A stretch of 38,107 bases of DNA from the IMG/VR virus record IMGVR_UViG_3300032286_000246, positions 1-38,107 of that record; one strand, written 5' to 3'. This DNA comes from a virus. Each line of letters starts with the position of its first letter. Positions within the stretch are counted from its first letter, which is position 1. A program made the position numbers and the translations under genes. Shown piece after piece: positions 516-37,595 of the stretch. The notes under the pieces were generated by a model. It saw nothing but the letters and a program-made list of their open reading frames with translations. It was not told where the DNA came from and did no database searches.

Positions 516-724
516 TGAAACAAAGTATTTATGATACATTAATCTTTATAATTGTTATGAGTATAATGGTTACGGGTTTAGCTGTTCCATTTTACTATTT
601 GTGGAATTGGTTGTTTGTTAAATTCTTTTGGTTTGATTATATTGATTACTTGGAGGCAGTTGGTTTTGTTAGTTTTGTTTTTTTGTTTAGATTTATTGCC
701 ATAGAGATTAAAACGCCTAAATGA
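515..724 (+). CDS. small predicted membrane protein
   Basis: A 69-residue protein of unknown function. It is almost wholly hydrophobic, with two likely membrane segments at about residues 7-30 and 45-62, separated by an aromatic stretch (FVKFFWFDYIDY), and a short basic tail. Its start overlaps the stop of the small terminase gene by one base and its end overlaps the methyltransferase start by four bases, so it is translated within the packaging operon. A membrane protein between terminase genes is not a standard packaging component. It may be an inserted accessory gene, for example for exclusion of competing phages, but nothing in the sequence proves that. Confidence 0.6.
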   Translation: MKQSIYDTLIFIIVMSIMVTGLAVPFYYLWNWLFVKFFWFDYIDYLEAVGFVSFVFLFRFIAIEIKTPK

Positions 725-1137
725 ATAATTTTATAAGCGAGGTGACGAATGAGGATTGCATGGAAGGCATGGCACGGTATCCAGACAGATACTTTGATTT
801 GGCTATTGTTGACCCACCGTATGGGATTGGTGAGGATGGAAGTAAAAATCATACAAGAAGTAAACTTGCAAAAGCTAGAAATTATAAATCATTTGCAGGT
901 AATGATATTTTTGCACCTGATATAATTTATTTTAATGAACTTTTAAGAGTTTCTAAAAATCAAATTATATGGGGAGCTAATCACTTTATTGAAAATGTTC
1001 CTAATGCTAACAGTTCAAGTTGGATTGTATGGAATAAAGTAAATGGAATTAATGATTTTGCTGATTGCGAATTAGCTTATACTTCATTTAAGACGGCAGT
1101 AAGAATGTTTACTTATAAGTGGAAAGGTATGCTTTAA
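721..1137 (+). CDS. DNA methyltransferase, N-terminal part (interrupted gene)
   Basis: First piece of a beta-class amino-methyltransferase for DNA (N6-adenine or N4-cytosine). It holds the catalytic motif IV DPPYG at residues 31-35 and a following segment with WGANHF and SWIVWNK typical of this family. It stops at a TAA (1135-1137). Six bases later the same frame resumes at 1144 with the missing half, so reading through the TAA would give one continuous enzyme of about 222 residues. Similar phage enzymes normally carry both halves in one chain, and the stop lies where a glutamine codon (CAA) would fit. This fragment alone lacks the SAM-binding motif I and is probably inactive by itself. Confidence 0.75.
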   Translation: MNNFISEVTNEDCMEGMARYPDRYFDLAIVDPPYGIGEDGSKNHTRSKLAKARNYKSFAGNDIFAPDIIYFNELLRVSKNQIIWGANHFIENVPNANSSSWIVWNKVNGINDFADCELAYTSFKTAVRMFTYKWKGML

Positions 1138-1143
1138 CAGGAT

Positions 1144-1389
1144 ATGAAAAATAAAGAATACCGCATACACCCAACACAAAAACCCGTTTCCCTTTATAAG
1201 TGGCTTTTGCAAAATTACGCAAAGCAAGGCGATAAAATACTTGATACTCATTTAGGCTCTGGAAGCAGTCGTATTGCAGCCTATGAAATGGGATTTGATT
1301 TTACTGCTTTTGAATTGGATAAAGAATACTTTGAGGCTCAAGAAAAAAGATACAAGGCTCACATTGCACAGTTGAAATTAGAATTATAA
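1144..1389 (+). CDS. DNA methyltransferase, C-terminal part (interrupted gene)
   Basis: Second piece of the same methyltransferase, in the same frame as 721-1137. It carries the family signature HPTQKP at residues 9-14 and the SAM-binding motif I as LDTHLGSGSS at residues 33-42, followed by the acidic FELD (56-59). Motif order IV then I defines the beta class. An ATG at 1144 could allow separate translation, which would give a two-subunit enzyme; alternatively the gene is broken, or the stop is a sequencing or population variant. Phage methyltransferases of this type commonly protect DNA against host restriction. Confidence 0.75.
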   Translation: MKNKEYRIHPTQKPVSLYKWLLQNYAKQGDKILDTHLGSGSSRIAAYEMGFDFTAFELDKEYFEAQEKRYKAHIAQLKLEL

Positions 1390-9659: not shown

Positions 9660-10634
9660 ATGAAAATAGCCATTTTTACAAACATTAACTCTCCAGCTAC
9701 CGACTTTTATCGGACCGTTGGCTGCTATGCCTACATGGGCCATGATATAAGATACCTTGCCATTGAATCGGCTAAGTGGTATGATTTAATGGATGTTGAT
9801 GTGGTAGTGGTTAAATCTCCTAATGGCATGGCATACTTTGAGATGCTAAAAGAGTGCAAGAGGATGGGTAAGAAAATCATCATTGACCATGACGATAATC
9901 TGCACGAAACAACACGCACTAATCCGGCACACATTGGACTAAGTCATGAGGCAATGCGAAAAACGGTGGAGGATTGTTTCGGCTTTGCTGACCATATTAT
10001 TTATTCTACCGATGCCTTGCAAAAATACTATATGCCATATCACGAAGGCATTGCAAGCACAGTTATAAATAATGGATGGAATCCAATCATTCAGCCATTC
10101 ATGCCAGTACCTAAAATAGAAGATAAGATAAGATTTATATGGCGCGGTTCTATGCATCACTTGGATGACATTGGCAGTATAGCAAGTTATATTAATGAGT
10201 TAGCGGAAGATGAGAGCTTTGATGTTGCCATGCTTGGCATACAAGATTTTATAATGGCTCATCTATTTCCAAAGGTAAAAACAAAGGAATGGAATAGCTC
10301 ACTTTTTGGCTACTTTGAAACATTAAACAATAGCCAATGTCATTACGGATTATTTCCGTTACTCAAAAACGATTTCAACTTTGCAAAGAGTAATATATTT
10401 GCCATTGAAATGTTAGTAGCTGGAGGAGTTACCATTGCACCAAAGGGCATACCAGAGTACAACATTCCAGGTGTGATAAAGTATGATGACTTTGGCGATG
10501 TCATACAAGCGGTGAAAAACAAGGACTTTGACAGAGAGGCGATAGTGAAGGAGGGAAGGGAGTATTTAAACGATGTGCTTAGAGTGGATAAAACAAACAA
10601 AAAGAGAGAACTAATTTTAAATAATTTAAACTAA
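9660..10634 (+). CDS. glycosyltransferase-like protein (GT-B fold), copy 1
   Basis: A 324-residue cytoplasmic protein likely to transfer a sugar from a nucleotide sugar. It reads as a GT-B family 1/4-like enzyme: IAIFTNINSPATDFYRTVG at the N-terminus, FADHIIYSTDALQKYY and VINNGWNP mid-protein, IRFIWRGSMHHLDDI opening the second Rossmann domain, and NFAKSNIFAIEMLVAGG with EYNIPGV where the donor-binding region is expected. It is clearly paralogous to the protein at 36609-37595 (same start, WRGxxxH, EWNS, KSNIFAIE, NIPGV, EGRxYLN). It stands among structural genes just after the neck fibre, so glycosylation of a virion protein is a reasonable hypothesis. Confidence 0.8.
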   Translation: MKIAIFTNINSPATDFYRTVGCYAYMGHDIRYLAIESAKWYDLMDVDVVVVKSPNGMAYFEMLKECKRMGKKIIIDHDDNLHETTRTNPAHIGLSHEAMRKTVEDCFGFADHIIYSTDALQKYYMPYHEGIASTVINNGWNPIIQPFMPVPKIEDKIRFIWRGSMHHLDDIGSIASYINELAEDESFDVAMLGIQDFIMAHLFPKVKTKEWNSSLFGYFETLNNSQCHYGLFPLLKNDFNFAKSNIFAIEMLVAGGVTIAPKGIPEYNIPGVIKYDDFGDVIQAVKNKDFDREAIVKEGREYLNDVLRVDKTNKKRELILNNLN

Positions 10635-29703: not shown

Positions 29704-29732
29704 ATAAAATAGGGCAGCTGGGATTCTGCCCT
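29704..29732 (-). terminator. terminator after the monocistronic gene
   Basis: On the - strand AGGGCAG (29732-29726), 8-base loop, CTGCCCT (29717-29711), then ATTTTATC. It follows the 206-residue gene closely and would limit its transcript to one gene, with partial readthrough into the next genes. Confidence 0.7.
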
Positions 29733-29741
29733 GTGAATTTA

Positions 29742-31400: not shown

Positions 31401-31629
31401 AATTTTCTATTTCATGTTCAACTTCTTCCCAATAGTAATATTCATCATAGCTACCTTCTACTTCAATATTCCATTTTTCTTTTAACACTTCCCGTGCTGC
31501 AAATAAAGCGCAATGCTTTGCCAAAATAGATACAAGGATTTCCTGCCCTAATTCTCCTCCAATGTCTTGGATTAAAATATAGTAGTGATTAAATAGCTCT
31601 TTGGCTTTTTCTTTGGGTGTTTGTTTCAT
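31390..31629 (-). CDS. hypothetical small protein
   Basis: A 79-residue acidic protein: helix PKEKAKELFNHYYILIQDIG, EILVSILAKHCALFAAREVL and a Glu/Tyr-rich tail (SYDEYYYWEEVEHEIENYEE). The opening part, TPKEKAKELFNHY, is typical for small phage proteins of unknown role. The acidic tail could mimic nucleic acid or contact SSB-type surfaces, but this is speculation. It overlaps the initiator gene stop by four bases. Confidence 0.6.
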   Translation of the reverse strand: MKQTPKEKAKELFNHYYILIQDIGGELGQEILVSILAKHCALFAAREVLKEKWNIEVEGSYDEYYYWEEVEHEIENYEE

Positions 31630-32552
31630 GGTTGATATTCATTTACGAGCCTTTCAATTTCCTCCTGCCTCCGCTTCTCCTGTGCGGCAGGGTTGGAATA
31701 CATAAATTTAGTATAAATATTATTTGCCTGGGAGTAGATATTGCTAATAGTAAAGTTAGCCTTTAGCCACTTATCGGATATTTGCCATGCAGCAGTAGTA
31801 AACATTGTCACCATTTCATCAGCTGCCTGCTCACTTGCAGATACCTTTTTTAGCCATGTTACTAATTTTTTACAGTTTGCACCATCCTTGGCTGTCATGA
31901 TATAATTATTCTTGTCAGAAGGATAAGTAACACCTGCAAGCCGTTCATAGGTGGAAGCAAAGGCGGAGAAACAGAGGTAGGTCTCGGAGGGTTCGCGTTC
32001 CTTTACCTTTTCTTTTTTCGCAAAATTTTCTTTTGGGTCAGAGTCAGTGTTCAGAGAATCAAGGATAGACTGCCTTGTAAAAGAATTTTTTATTTTTGGT
32101 TGAGGAGGAGTGAAAGGCATTTCACAATCCTTTAATACTTTAATATTGTTAATACTTCTATTGGCTAATACTTCTTGGGTGTTCATGACTGAAGGTGTCC
32201 CCTCTTCATGGGTGAATACCTCCCCCTCTTCATTGGTGAATGGGGTGGTATCTAAATTTGACATACTTTTGCCTGTAACAAACACTCCTATAAATTCAGT
32301 TTCAATTTTATAAAGGTTACTTGTTTGGCTTCCGTCTGGTCTAAATCTTTGTTTTACGCTAATAATTTTTCTTGTTACCAATTCATTTTTAATCCTTAAA
32401 ATCTTTGAATCGCTAAATTTACATTGTTCAATTAATTTTTTGTTTGAAGGAAAACACATTTTATTTTCATTCATAAAATTAACTATATGGCAAAGTAAAA
32501 ATAATTGGTCTGGTGTTACCTGTGGTAAAAGCCTTGTATCTATGTTTATCAT
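31626..32552 (-). CDS. winged-helix replication initiator-like protein (lambda O-like)
   Basis: A 308-residue protein likely to open or mark the replication origin. The N-terminal 85 residues form a winged helix of the HTH_36 type: VTPDQLFLLCHIVNFMNENK, CFPSNKKLIEQCKFSDSKIL and a wing ELVTRKIISVKQRFRPDG. A disordered middle (about 95-185) leads to a helical C-terminal part (CKKLVTWLKKVSASEQAADE, TTAAWQISDKWLKANFTISN) that probably contacts the helicase machinery. Initiators of this kind often carry their origin inside the gene; I did not identify clear iterons there. It overlaps the ParB-like gene by four bases. Confidence 0.72.
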   Translation of the reverse strand: MINIDTRLLPQVTPDQLFLLCHIVNFMNENKMCFPSNKKLIEQCKFSDSKILRIKNELVTRKIISVKQRFRPDGSQTSNLYKIETEFIGVFVTGKSMSNLDTTPFTNEEGEVFTHEEGTPSVMNTQEVLANRSINNIKVLKDCEMPFTPPQPKIKNSFTRQSILDSLNTDSDPKENFAKKEKVKEREPSETYLCFSAFASTYERLAGVTYPSDKNNYIMTAKDGANCKKLVTWLKKVSASEQAADEMVTMFTTAAWQISDKWLKANFTISNIYSQANNIYTKFMYSNPAAQEKRRQEEIERLVNEYQP

Positions 32553-33004
32553 AATTCTAATTTAGCTTGTTTACCAAAATTTTTATTAAATACAAATACG
32601 TGTACTGCATGATTATCCATCTTATCAATAGGTTTACTTTCCGCAGATATCTGCTTAATGTCTGTTCTTTTTCCTTGATTTTCCTTTGCCTTTTCCCTAA
32701 ATACATCCTCAAGTTGCAATGCTAAAACGCTTCTTTGGTAATTAGATAAATTCCTTCTTCCAAACTGGTTATTAATCATCCATTCCTTAACACGATTAAT
32801 ATTATCAAACTTCTTTTCAAGTGTTTTATAATTTATGTCGTGTTCCTGTGCAATCCTGTATCGGTTGTGTCCGTCGATTAAAATACCATTCCATGTAATC
32901 AATGGTTCGCGAATTCCTTCTTCAAGAATATTGCGCTCCAGCTGCTTAAATTCCTCGTTTGATAATGGGGGAATAAGGCTTTCAAGTTCCTGTAATATTT
33001 GCAT
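32549..33004 (-). CDS. ParB/Spo0J N-terminal-like domain protein
   Basis: A 151-residue protein with the ParB-type NTPase/nuclease fold: LIPPLSNEEFKQLERNILEE, GIREPLITWNGILIDGHNRY (with the GxxxxDGHNR signature) and RIAQEHDINYKTLEK. The later part (WMINNQFGRRNLSNYQRSVL) is a helical region seen in phage and plasmid relatives. I use ATG at 33004; the longer frame to 33058 would run through the terminator hairpin of the leader. No ParA partner is present, so a role in gene control, DNA modification or replication is more likely than partition. First gene of the replication operon. Confidence 0.8.
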   Translation of the reverse strand: MQILQELESLIPPLSNEEFKQLERNILEEGIREPLITWNGILIDGHNRYRIAQEHDINYKTLEKKFDNINRVKEWMINNQFGRRNLSNYQRSVLALQLEDVFREKAKENQGKRTDIKQISAESKPIDKMDNHAVHVFVFNKNFGKQAKLEL

Positions 33005-33104
33005 AGGTAAAATAAAAAATGCCCGACAGGTGGACGCTATCGGGCAAAGGTGAAACAAAGATTTGTTTCAAGCTCCTTTGAATGGCGTCCACTCCGTTCA
33101 AAGA
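33005..33104 (-). ncRNA. structured leader RNA of the replication operon
   Basis: From the predicted start near 33104 the leader forms hairpin 1 (CTTTGAACGG / CCATTCAAAG, 33103-33076, one A-C mismatch), hairpin 2 (TGAAACAAA / TTTGTTTCA, 33070-33051) and a terminator hairpin 3 (TGCCCGA / TCGGGCA, 33046-33020) with a T-rich tail. Hairpin 1 exposes GTGGACGC (33092-33085), the exact complement of GCGTCCAC in the loop of hairpin 3 (33037-33030). Pairing of these loops could prevent or shape termination before the ParB-like gene. Confidence 0.6.
33007..33046 (-). terminator. intrinsic terminator (possible attenuator) before the ParB-like gene
   Basis: On the - strand TGCCCGA, 13-base loop, TCGGGCA, then TTTTTTATTTT. 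It ends 15 bases before the ATG at 33004. It either ends transcripts of the genes upstream (33126-36385) or, together with the promoter at 33110-33139, works as an attenuator for the replication operon. Confidence 0.78.
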
Positions 33105-33109
33105 ATACA

Positions 33110-33139
33110 CAAATATAATACTTTTTTAATTCTTTTCAA
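33110..33139 (-). promoter_or_regulatory. Bacteroidetes-type promoter for the replication operon
   Basis: On the - strand TTG (33139-33137), exactly 19 bases, then TATATTTG (33117-33110): a full match to the Bacteroidetes -33/-7 pattern. It overlaps the 3' end of the upstream gene (33126-33359). Transcription should begin near 33104, directly at hairpin 1 of the leader. Confidence 0.75.
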
Positions 33140-33359
33140 CTATTTGTTTTACCTCATTCTTATCCTCTATGAACCCACTGCCATGACTCCCTCCGACTAT
33201 TTTGAGGTACTGGTTCTCCACGCTGGCACTGTTTATAATCACCTGGGCAACATCTGCAACAACCTTGGCTTTGGCAATGTCATAGGTGGATTCGGGGTCG
33301 GTCAGTTCTTCAAGAACGGAGAATAGGTGGTTGCGTAAATCGCTGATTTTGTTTTTCAT
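33126..33359 (-). CDS. hypothetical small protein
   Basis: A 77-residue protein: KNKISDLRNHLFSVLEELTD, then AKAKVVADVAQVIINSASVE and a polar end. The layout DLRNHLF...LxD...AKVVADVAQVIINSAxVE is one I associate with a small conserved protein of Bacteroidetes phages without known function. It overlaps the next gene upstream by four bases, and its 3' end carries the promoter for the replication operon. Confidence 0.65.
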   Translation of the reverse strand: MKNKISDLRNHLFSVLEELTDPESTYDIAKAKVVADVAQVIINSASVENQYLKIVGGSHGSGFIEDKNEVKQIVEKN

Positions 33360-36447: not shown

Positions 36448-36612
36448 ATGGATGTACTAACGAAAAAAAGAAAAAGCGTGCTTTTGGATGATGATACGCA
36501 TAAACTACTTATATCTACTCAGATATATGTATCTGCAAAAACTGGTAAGAAAATGCCATTGGTTGAAATTATTAATTATTTATGTGCTGATTGGCAAAAA
36601 AAGAACAAATGA
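36448..36612 (+). CDS. small ribbon-helix-helix-like regulator
   Basis: A 54-residue basic protein. The order KRKSVLLDDDTHKLLISTQI (strand then helix A), YVSAKTGKKMPLVEIINYLC (turn and helix B) fits a CopG/Arc-type ribbon-helix-helix DNA-binding dimer. I use ATG at 36448; a TTG at 36427 in the same frame lies in the promoter -7 box. It is first in the rightward unit, right at the divergent promoter pair, the classic place for an autoregulator, and is the only obvious candidate for the regulator of the two palindromic operators at 24580 and 30411. Confidence 0.65.
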   Translation: MDVLTKKRKSVLLDDDTHKLLISTQIYVSAKTGKKMPLVEIINYLCADWQKKNK

Positions 36613-37595
36613 AGGCTACTATATTCACATCTTCTAAAAGTCAAGCGACTGATTACTACAGGACGATAGGTCCTTTCTCTCGTCTTGCATTGCAAAAGAA
36701 ATTTGAGTTGATTATATGCAATCAAGAAAAAGCAGTCTGGCATGATATATATAACACAGATATTGTTATTATACAGCGTCCTAACTCTACTGCCTCCCTG
36801 GGAATAATGGCAGATGCAAAGCGAATGAATAAGGCTGTGATAATAGACTTTGACGATCATTTATTAAATGTTCCAGAAGATAATCCTGCATCAACTTATT
36901 TTAGCAATCCACAGGTGCAAAAGCAAATACAAGATACATTCTTATTTGCAGATGTTATCATAGTATCTACTCAAAAGCTATATGACCTATATAAACCTTT
37001 AAGCCATAATAAGCCTATGTTTGTCATACCTAATGGATGGTCACCTACTGACCTACCTATGATAAAGGTAGAGGAGCAGCACAATCCTCCAAGGTTTGTT
37101 TGGCGTGGTGGAAGTACACACTTTGCAGACTTACATACTATAAAGGAGCAACTCAATAAGGCAATGGAGTTAGACACAGAATTTACTTTCTTTGGTATGC
37201 CTAAGTTTATGATGTATGACTTTAGCAAGAAGGCTAACTTTGTAGAATGGAATAGTATGTTTATTTACTTTACATTTATGCAAAGGATAGAAGGTGATTA
37301 TGGCTTTTATCCATTAGTTCGCAATGAGTTTAATGAAGGTAAGTCTAATATCTTTGCCATTGAATGTTTAGCAAATGGTATGCCAGTGTTAGCAGATGTA
37401 TACTTCAAGGAGTTTAATATACCTGGAGTAATGAGTTATGATACACCTCACCAATTCTTTGACCTTGTCTTAGCTATTATAGCTGGCAACATTAACAAAG
37501 TATCTCTCGTTAAGGAAGGAAGGAAGTATCTTAATGAGGTACTACACATAGAATTATTGAATCAAACAAGATACAAGATACTTAAAGGATTATAA
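36609..37595 (+). CDS. glycosyltransferase-like protein (GT-B fold), copy 2
   Basis: A 328-residue paralogue of the protein at 9660-10634. It shares KATIFTSSKSQATDYYRTIG, DIVIIQRPNSTASLGIMADA-like strand and helix order, FVWRGGSTHFADLHTI, FVEWNSMFIYF, EGKSNIFAIECLANGMPVLA and EFNIPGVMSYDTP. These fit a sugar donor-binding GT-B fold; the substrate is unknown. I use ATG at 36609, overlapping the regulator stop (ATGA), instead of TTG at 36591. As it is made from the divergent early promoter, it may be made before or together with the late copy. Confidence 0.78.
   Translation: MKATIFTSSKSQATDYYRTIGPFSRLALQKKFELIICNQEKAVWHDIYNTDIVIIQRPNSTASLGIMADAKRMNKAVIIDFDDHLLNVPEDNPASTYFSNPQVQKQIQDTFLFADVIIVSTQKLYDLYKPLSHNKPMFVIPNGWSPTDLPMIKVEEQHNPPRFVWRGGSTHFADLHTIKEQLNKAMELDTEFTFFGMPKFMMYDFSKKANFVEWNSMFIYFTFMQRIEGDYGFYPLVRNEFNEGKSNIFAIECLANGMPVLADVYFKEFNIPGVMSYDTPHQFFDLVLAIIAGNINKVSLVKEGRKYLNEVLHIELLNQTRYKILKGL

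Follow-up and report, generated by a model that had tools for sequence, protein, structure and literature searches.

Anatomy of the leader

The window analysed here, a 38.1 kb IMG/VR virus record taken at its full length, carries a leader module on the minus strand (33139-33004) ahead of two genes of the same strand. The first gene after the leader (32549-33004) encodes a 151-aa protein with a ParB-like N-terminal domain, and its stop overlaps the start of a second gene (31626-32552) for a replication initiator-like protein (HTH_36, DnaD/O-like). In relatives, the ParB-like N-terminal domain forms a fusion with a DNA methyltransferase, whose type varies (N6_N4 or MT-A70). The window protein is a shortened version of this fusion that lacks the methyltransferase domain, and since the initiator directly follows the shortened gene, a single leader probably serves both. 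A deletion of the methyltransferase domain plus a second module would explain the arrangement. Among the relatives L003, L039, L066 and L071, the conserved ParB-like N-terminal domain sits on quite different methyltransferase domains (N6_N4, MT-A70), a pattern which suggests that the methyltransferase half of the fusions has been swapped.

A Bacteroidota-type promoter, TTG-N19-TATATTTG, occupies 33110-33139 on the minus strand. Its -7 element is kept in relatives as TATMTTTG, and TAnnTTTG is the published Bacteroidota promoter consensus (PMC6847099 and others). The initial annotation had called this promoter perfect; the TTG is indeed exact in the window, but in most relatives conservation is limited to TAnnTTTG. 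Judging from the position of the promoter, the 5' end of the leader would lie near 33104, the probable transcription start, some 6 nt past the -7 element.

Three hairpins follow on the same strand. Hairpin 1 (33076-33103), with the stem CTTTGAA/TTCAAAG, exposes in its loop the sequence X (GTGGACGC, 33085-33092). Hairpin 2 (33051-33070) is a 9-bp helix of TGAAACAAA with TTTGTTTCA, and hairpin 3 (33020-33046) is an intrinsic terminator with a 10-bp stem, a 7-nt loop and a T-rich tail (TTTTTTATTTT, 33009-33019), the best terminator-like site of the region. The terminator loop reads CGTCCAC and, together with the neighbouring base, forms X' (GCGTCCAC, 33030-33037), the complement of X. The ATG of the ParB-like gene, at 33004, lies 16 nt past the terminator stem. 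The promoter, the three hairpins and the complementary loops that had been proposed for this region are thus all present on the minus strand, including the exact 8-base complement between the loops (33092-33085 with 33037-33030) and the 9-bp hairpin between them (33070-33051). The C-A mismatch reported in hairpin 1 is also real, and it becomes a G-U pair on the other strand.

No other copy of GTGGACGC or of its complement occurs in the window, where 0.22 matches would be expected by chance. A detector of a hairpin and a terminator with complementary loops returned one genuine unit in the window, versus about 0.22 per shuffled window; this detector requires complementarity, and its counts are not evidence for pairing, which comes instead from protein-selected leaders and from a blind covariance model.

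Just upstream of the leader, an ORF of 77 aa on the minus strand (33126-33359) matches PHROG family 2044 (E 2.4e-15). The annotation of that family, 'RNA polymerase beta subunit', is a doubtful name for a protein of this size.

Loop-loop complementarity among relatives

A first pattern scan of other contigs (GTGGACGCC...GCGTCCAC) gave mostly chance matches. Relatives were gathered by the ParB-like protein alone, in a search of viral contigs that produced 80 loci. Those with a promoter and a terminator before the gene have the same anatomy with other letters in the loops, and the two loops are complementary each time. Over the 20 X types of these protein-selected leaders, the two loops of one leader match over a mean of 7.2 nt and mixed pairs over 3.8 nt; in 100000 permutations, the observed sum was never reached.

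The blind test used a covariance model that described the three hairpins but not the loop-loop pairing. Run over 98 loci, it returned 113 matches, corresponding to 68 distinct leaders; in every one of the 68, loop 1 and the terminator loop are exactly complementary over 7 to 10 nt. This complement is exactly 7 nt long in 52 of them, usually stopping at the loop edges, and the set holds about 21 core loop sequences. Loop pairs taken from different leaders match over a mean of 3.66 nt, and reach at least 7 nt in 1.9% of cases. In the 26 aligned leaders of A2, pairing of the loop helix is complete (100%), and six of its seven pairs have changed on both sides; none of 500 shuffles reached, by any measure, the value observed for the four-helix structure that includes the loop helix. 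All three stems covary as well, those of hairpin 1 throughout the 68 distinct leaders.

Conservation excludes a chance origin of the loop match in the window: the complement remains exact in all 68 distinct relatives, although its letters differ among them. The loops of hairpin 1 and of the terminator almost certainly pair, because dozens of related phages keep the match with altered letters, and we have hardly any doubt that this RNA loop-loop pairing is real and under selection. The initial annotation had counted relatives with hairpins and without loop complementarity as evidence against its reading. The opposite was found: the search of other phages for the same architecture yielded 68 distinct leaders, whose loops covary perfectly over about 21 core sequence types.

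The composition of the helix is itself informative. G-U pairs are absent from the X:X' loop helix (0 of 367 pairs), versus 108 of 1224 in the stems. At the level of sequence, the comparison shows X and X' kept complementary by strict Watson-Crick pairing while X changes among phages. The lack of G-U pairs is also what DNA repeats would display, as if X and X' were inverted DNA sites for a phage protein and the hairpins incidental. This reading is extremely improbable: the stems covary as RNA, G-U pairs included, X and X' occur in hairpin loops without exception, and the two modules of one genome carry a different X where one protein would read the same site.

Kissing loops or a nested fold

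Two architectures can be drawn from a leader of this kind. In the first, the three hairpins form and the loops of hairpins 1 and 3 kiss; in the second, X and X' pair as a nested helix around hairpin 2, and hairpin 1 and the terminator are lost. The latter would be a classical attenuator, with the nested helix as an antiterminator that excludes both hairpins, and it draws its support from the window itself, where the nested fold is the better one by 5 kcal/mol (-33.5 vs -28.3 kcal/mol). The window leader is an exception, however. The three-hairpin fold is preferred in 24 of the 26 leaders folded, with a mean advantage of 9.4 kcal/mol when all 26 are counted, so a kissing-loop design is favoured over a classical terminator/antiterminator switch, which fits only the window leader and one other. 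The complement mostly ends at the loop edges, being 7 nt long in the majority of leaders as given above, and the two arms of hairpin 1, like those of hairpin 3, covary with each other. Altogether, we consider the classical attenuator very unlikely.

The order of hairpin 1 and the terminator hairpin and the compact spacing between them are kept among relatives. Hairpin 2 is missing from distant leaders with two hairpins, and in these X' again lies within or beside the apical loop of the terminator; in L039, L060 and L071, it falls within a long stem with an internal loop or a short closing stem. The common design, as read from these leaders, is two hairpins with loops able to kiss.

Nine loci (L039, L060, L069, L071, L073, L076, L077, L292 and L299) represent a second, simpler leader type. 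It mostly has no clear hairpin 2, and its linker is A/T-rich. Several of its members have a long terminator, interrupted by an internal loop, whose apical loop complements hairpin 1.

Genomic settings and divergence of the loops

In surveys keyed on the promoter and the first arm, or on hairpin 2, the module was found before ParB-methyltransferases, two kinds of replication initiators, HNH/helicase-like, other ParB-like and small proteins. Three phages with an initiator like that of the window (L429, L447 and L453) have it directly ahead of the initiator gene. These settings bear on a further explanation, that a protein (the ParB-like protein, the initiator or a host factor) or a ligand binds the hairpins and decides termination, with the loop pairing shaping its binding site. 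The good conservation of hairpin 2 in type A leaders and the nature of the downstream proteins, which are nucleic-acid binders, speak in its favour. Nevertheless, the module precedes many unrelated genes, distant leaders do without hairpin 2, and about 21 X sequences, complementary throughout, amount to a variety that a binder would not need. We regard such a binder as highly doubtful.

Two modules occur together in 17 contigs, on the same strand and separated by about 1.3 to 2.5 kb. These contigs present 14 different loop pairs in total, and the two loops differ every time. The absence of identical X pairs within one genome equals the chance expectation, such pairs being so few. By a graded measure, co-resident loops share shorter runs than random pairs (2.43 vs 3.13, P about 0.013 in a crude test), a result that leans weakly towards orthogonality.

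The rate at which the loops change depends on the set considered. In initiator modules, which were fetched by a hairpin 2 pattern that leaves hairpin 1 untouched, loop divergence is 0.36 and 0.45, versus 0.04 for the hairpin 1 stem; this difference is about nine-fold and the loop changes are always compensated. The clearest pair of leaders, GTGCAAG vs GTGAAGG, differs at 4 of 14 loop positions and at only 2 of 79 positions elsewhere, and both of the latter sit in the closing pair of the terminator. In the full set of leaders, the rate of divergence is about the same for the loops and the terminator stem, with no excess for the loops.

A proposed mechanism for loop-governed termination

Polymerase starting at the promoter would make a leader of about 90 nt, and the X:X' loop-loop pairing would decide whether the terminator works. 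We think it likely, on sequence grounds, that loop pairing governs termination ahead of the operon, and from the position of the module, control of entry into the replication operon is plausible. As a whole, we hold with about equal belief and doubt the proposal that the leader is a self-recognising kissing-loop element and acts as a gate to the replication genes and other early genes of the phage.

Early in infection, loop 1 of a nascent leader would catch X' as it emerges, the terminator would close late and the operon would be transcribed. Terminated leaders would then accumulate, and their loops would kiss new leaders of the same type, blocking the internal pairing so that the terminator closes. 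The outcome would be a negative feedback on the operon, together with the silencing of an incoming phage that has the same loop type and not of phages with other types. That leader copies act on each other in trans and in a type-specific manner is, for us, evenly balanced between yes and no. The sign of the effect, with readthrough from the own loop and termination from other copies, is put forward more tentatively.

The main competitor keeps everything within one transcript: the two loops of a single RNA would kiss, delaying or stabilising the terminator as a fixed readthrough setting or a timer, and X would vary by neutral compensation. All the evidence for loop-loop pairing supports this reading equally, and it agrees with the conserved hairpin order and compact spacing, with the terminator-stem rate of loop divergence over all leaders and with the lack of any prophage setting among the records. 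Yet neutral compensation normally passes through G-U pairs, of which the loop helix has none; X changes far more than the hairpin 1 stem in initiator modules; and the two modules of one genome always differ, being somewhat less alike than random pairs. Action within a single transcript is a real possibility in our view, although we would sooner bet against it than for it. What favours recognition among RNA copies of one type, on the pattern of plasmid incompatibility or P4 immunity, is that the loops are diverse and free of G-U pairs, that two different types can occur in one genome, and that the loops change on near-constant backgrounds.

No integrase, tyrosine or serine recombinase, or resolvase was found in the records tested, some of which may be fragments. 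A lysogenic immunity of the P4 or P1 type thus has no obvious setting here, and the benefit of recognition between copies would be copy control or the exclusion of superinfection by the same type, in lytic or carrier-state infection.

Antisense transcription, known families and hosts

An antisense RNA that controls the leader, of the kind known from ColE1- or pT181-type plasmids, had also been offered as an option, given that the opposite strand folds well and gains a G-U pair at the mismatch of hairpin 1. The search does not support it. Promoter-like sites of this consensus occur on the opposite strand in 4 of 180 cases versus 3.3 expected, a chance rate; the good folding of the complementary strand follows from the inverted repeats; and a leader RNA able to pair with another copy of itself makes an antisense strand unnecessary. 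We regard such control as a very remote possibility. The likeness to plasmid copy-number RNAs proposed alongside it holds in spirit, in that loops diversify and the two modules of a genome differ, but not for the antisense transcript. Searched for as a separate target, X has no extra copy in the window; in other genomes it occurs at most mildly above shuffles, and no recognisable target site for it was found.

No Rfam family matched the window at its gathering score, and among the loci of 18 relatives the matches were two tRNAs, with none for the leaders. C4 antisense RNA gave no match at E up to 1, and matches to STnc310 and ctRNA_pT181 were far below their gathering scores and were taken as chance. 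The open-access literature held nothing on an RNA family of this kind. The leader appears to be a new RNA family, while control of termination by loop-loop pairing is a known kind of mechanism.

The GenBank phage collection contained no relative by DNA or by initiator protein, and a methyltransferase search of the same phages returned distant proteins only. A search of genomes with the ParB-like protein found distant relatives across many phyla. The leader model gave one weak match (35 bits) against nine Bacteroidota genomes, and under strict filters, with few candidates scored per genome, the leader was found in none of 396 Bacteroidota genomes. The phages with the leader probably infect Bacteroidota.

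Relation to known systems

In the pT181 attenuator, kissing hairpins decide an intrinsic terminator upstream of the replication initiator, and the loop and upper-stem sequences set specificity, so that orthogonal variants can be made (PMC3753616). The leader described here likewise has a terminator in the leader of an initiator operon and a 5' hairpin loop available for kissing. However, pT181 transcribes its antisense RNA from the other strand, whereas here both loop partners lie in one transcript with no evident antisense promoter, the opposite strand showing no excess of promoters of the consensus sought. Neither does a 5' hairpin or arm pair with the terminator stem as an antiterminator; the pairing is loop to loop.

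ColE1 RNA I/RNA II and R1-type systems also use loop-loop pairing of about seven bases, with loops that diversify among compatible replicons. Those loops belong to an antisense RNA that acts on a replication primer or on translation, in contrast to the same-strand terminator here. Phage leader hairpins that affect termination are known from HK022 put RNA and other cis antitermination leaders; the put hairpins act directly on RNA polymerase and have conserved loops, whereas the present loops are variable, mutual pairing being their only constraint.

Among phages, the closest resemblance is to the CI RNA and seqA-seqC immunity of P4 (also the C4 RNA of P1/P7 and the RNAs of N15), which likewise place mutually complementary stretches within one leader before early or replication genes. 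According to the summary in PMC4825925, transcription of the P4 replication genes ends prematurely as a result of RNA-RNA pairing. The P4 system relies on lysogeny and on an RNA that is processed, whereas for the present leader we found no integrase and no match to a curated Rfam family; here an intrinsic terminator carries X' in its loop and a 5' hairpin carries X in its own, in phages of probable Bacteroidota hosts.

Placed at the head of the replication operon in a group of uncultured phages, the leader represents an apparently undescribed RNA family, and the evidence for its loop-loop pairing is unusually clean. If it does act between RNA copies, it would give phages a protein-free system of self/non-self recognition and would amount to a large natural repertoire of orthogonal switches for transcription terminators, where earlier orthogonal sets were engineered (7 x 7, PMC3753616). 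Speculatively, and with more doubt than confidence, more than 20 mutually orthogonal and widely shared kissing-loop types could act as 'compatibility groups' of non-integrating Bacteroidota phages, whose operons would sense leader RNA of their own type for copy control and same-type exclusion, the types being exchanged and diversified and two often residing in one genome. Whether phages without integrases exclude their own kind by means of a leader RNA becomes a directly testable question.

Other features of the window

A hairpin with T-rich flanks on both strands lies inside the minus-strand gene cluster at 29709-29734. It is likely a bidirectional terminator, and the detector found no complementary-loop partner for it. 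At 721-1389 (plus strand), two adjacent ORFs of 138 and 81 aa resemble the two halves of one DNA methyltransferase, with DPPYG in the first and HPTQKP in the second; judged from these ORFs, the gene may be split or broken. Finally, two similar proteins are encoded on the plus strand at 9660-10634 and 36591-37595, the second near the end of the record, and both look glycosyltransferase-like by eye.
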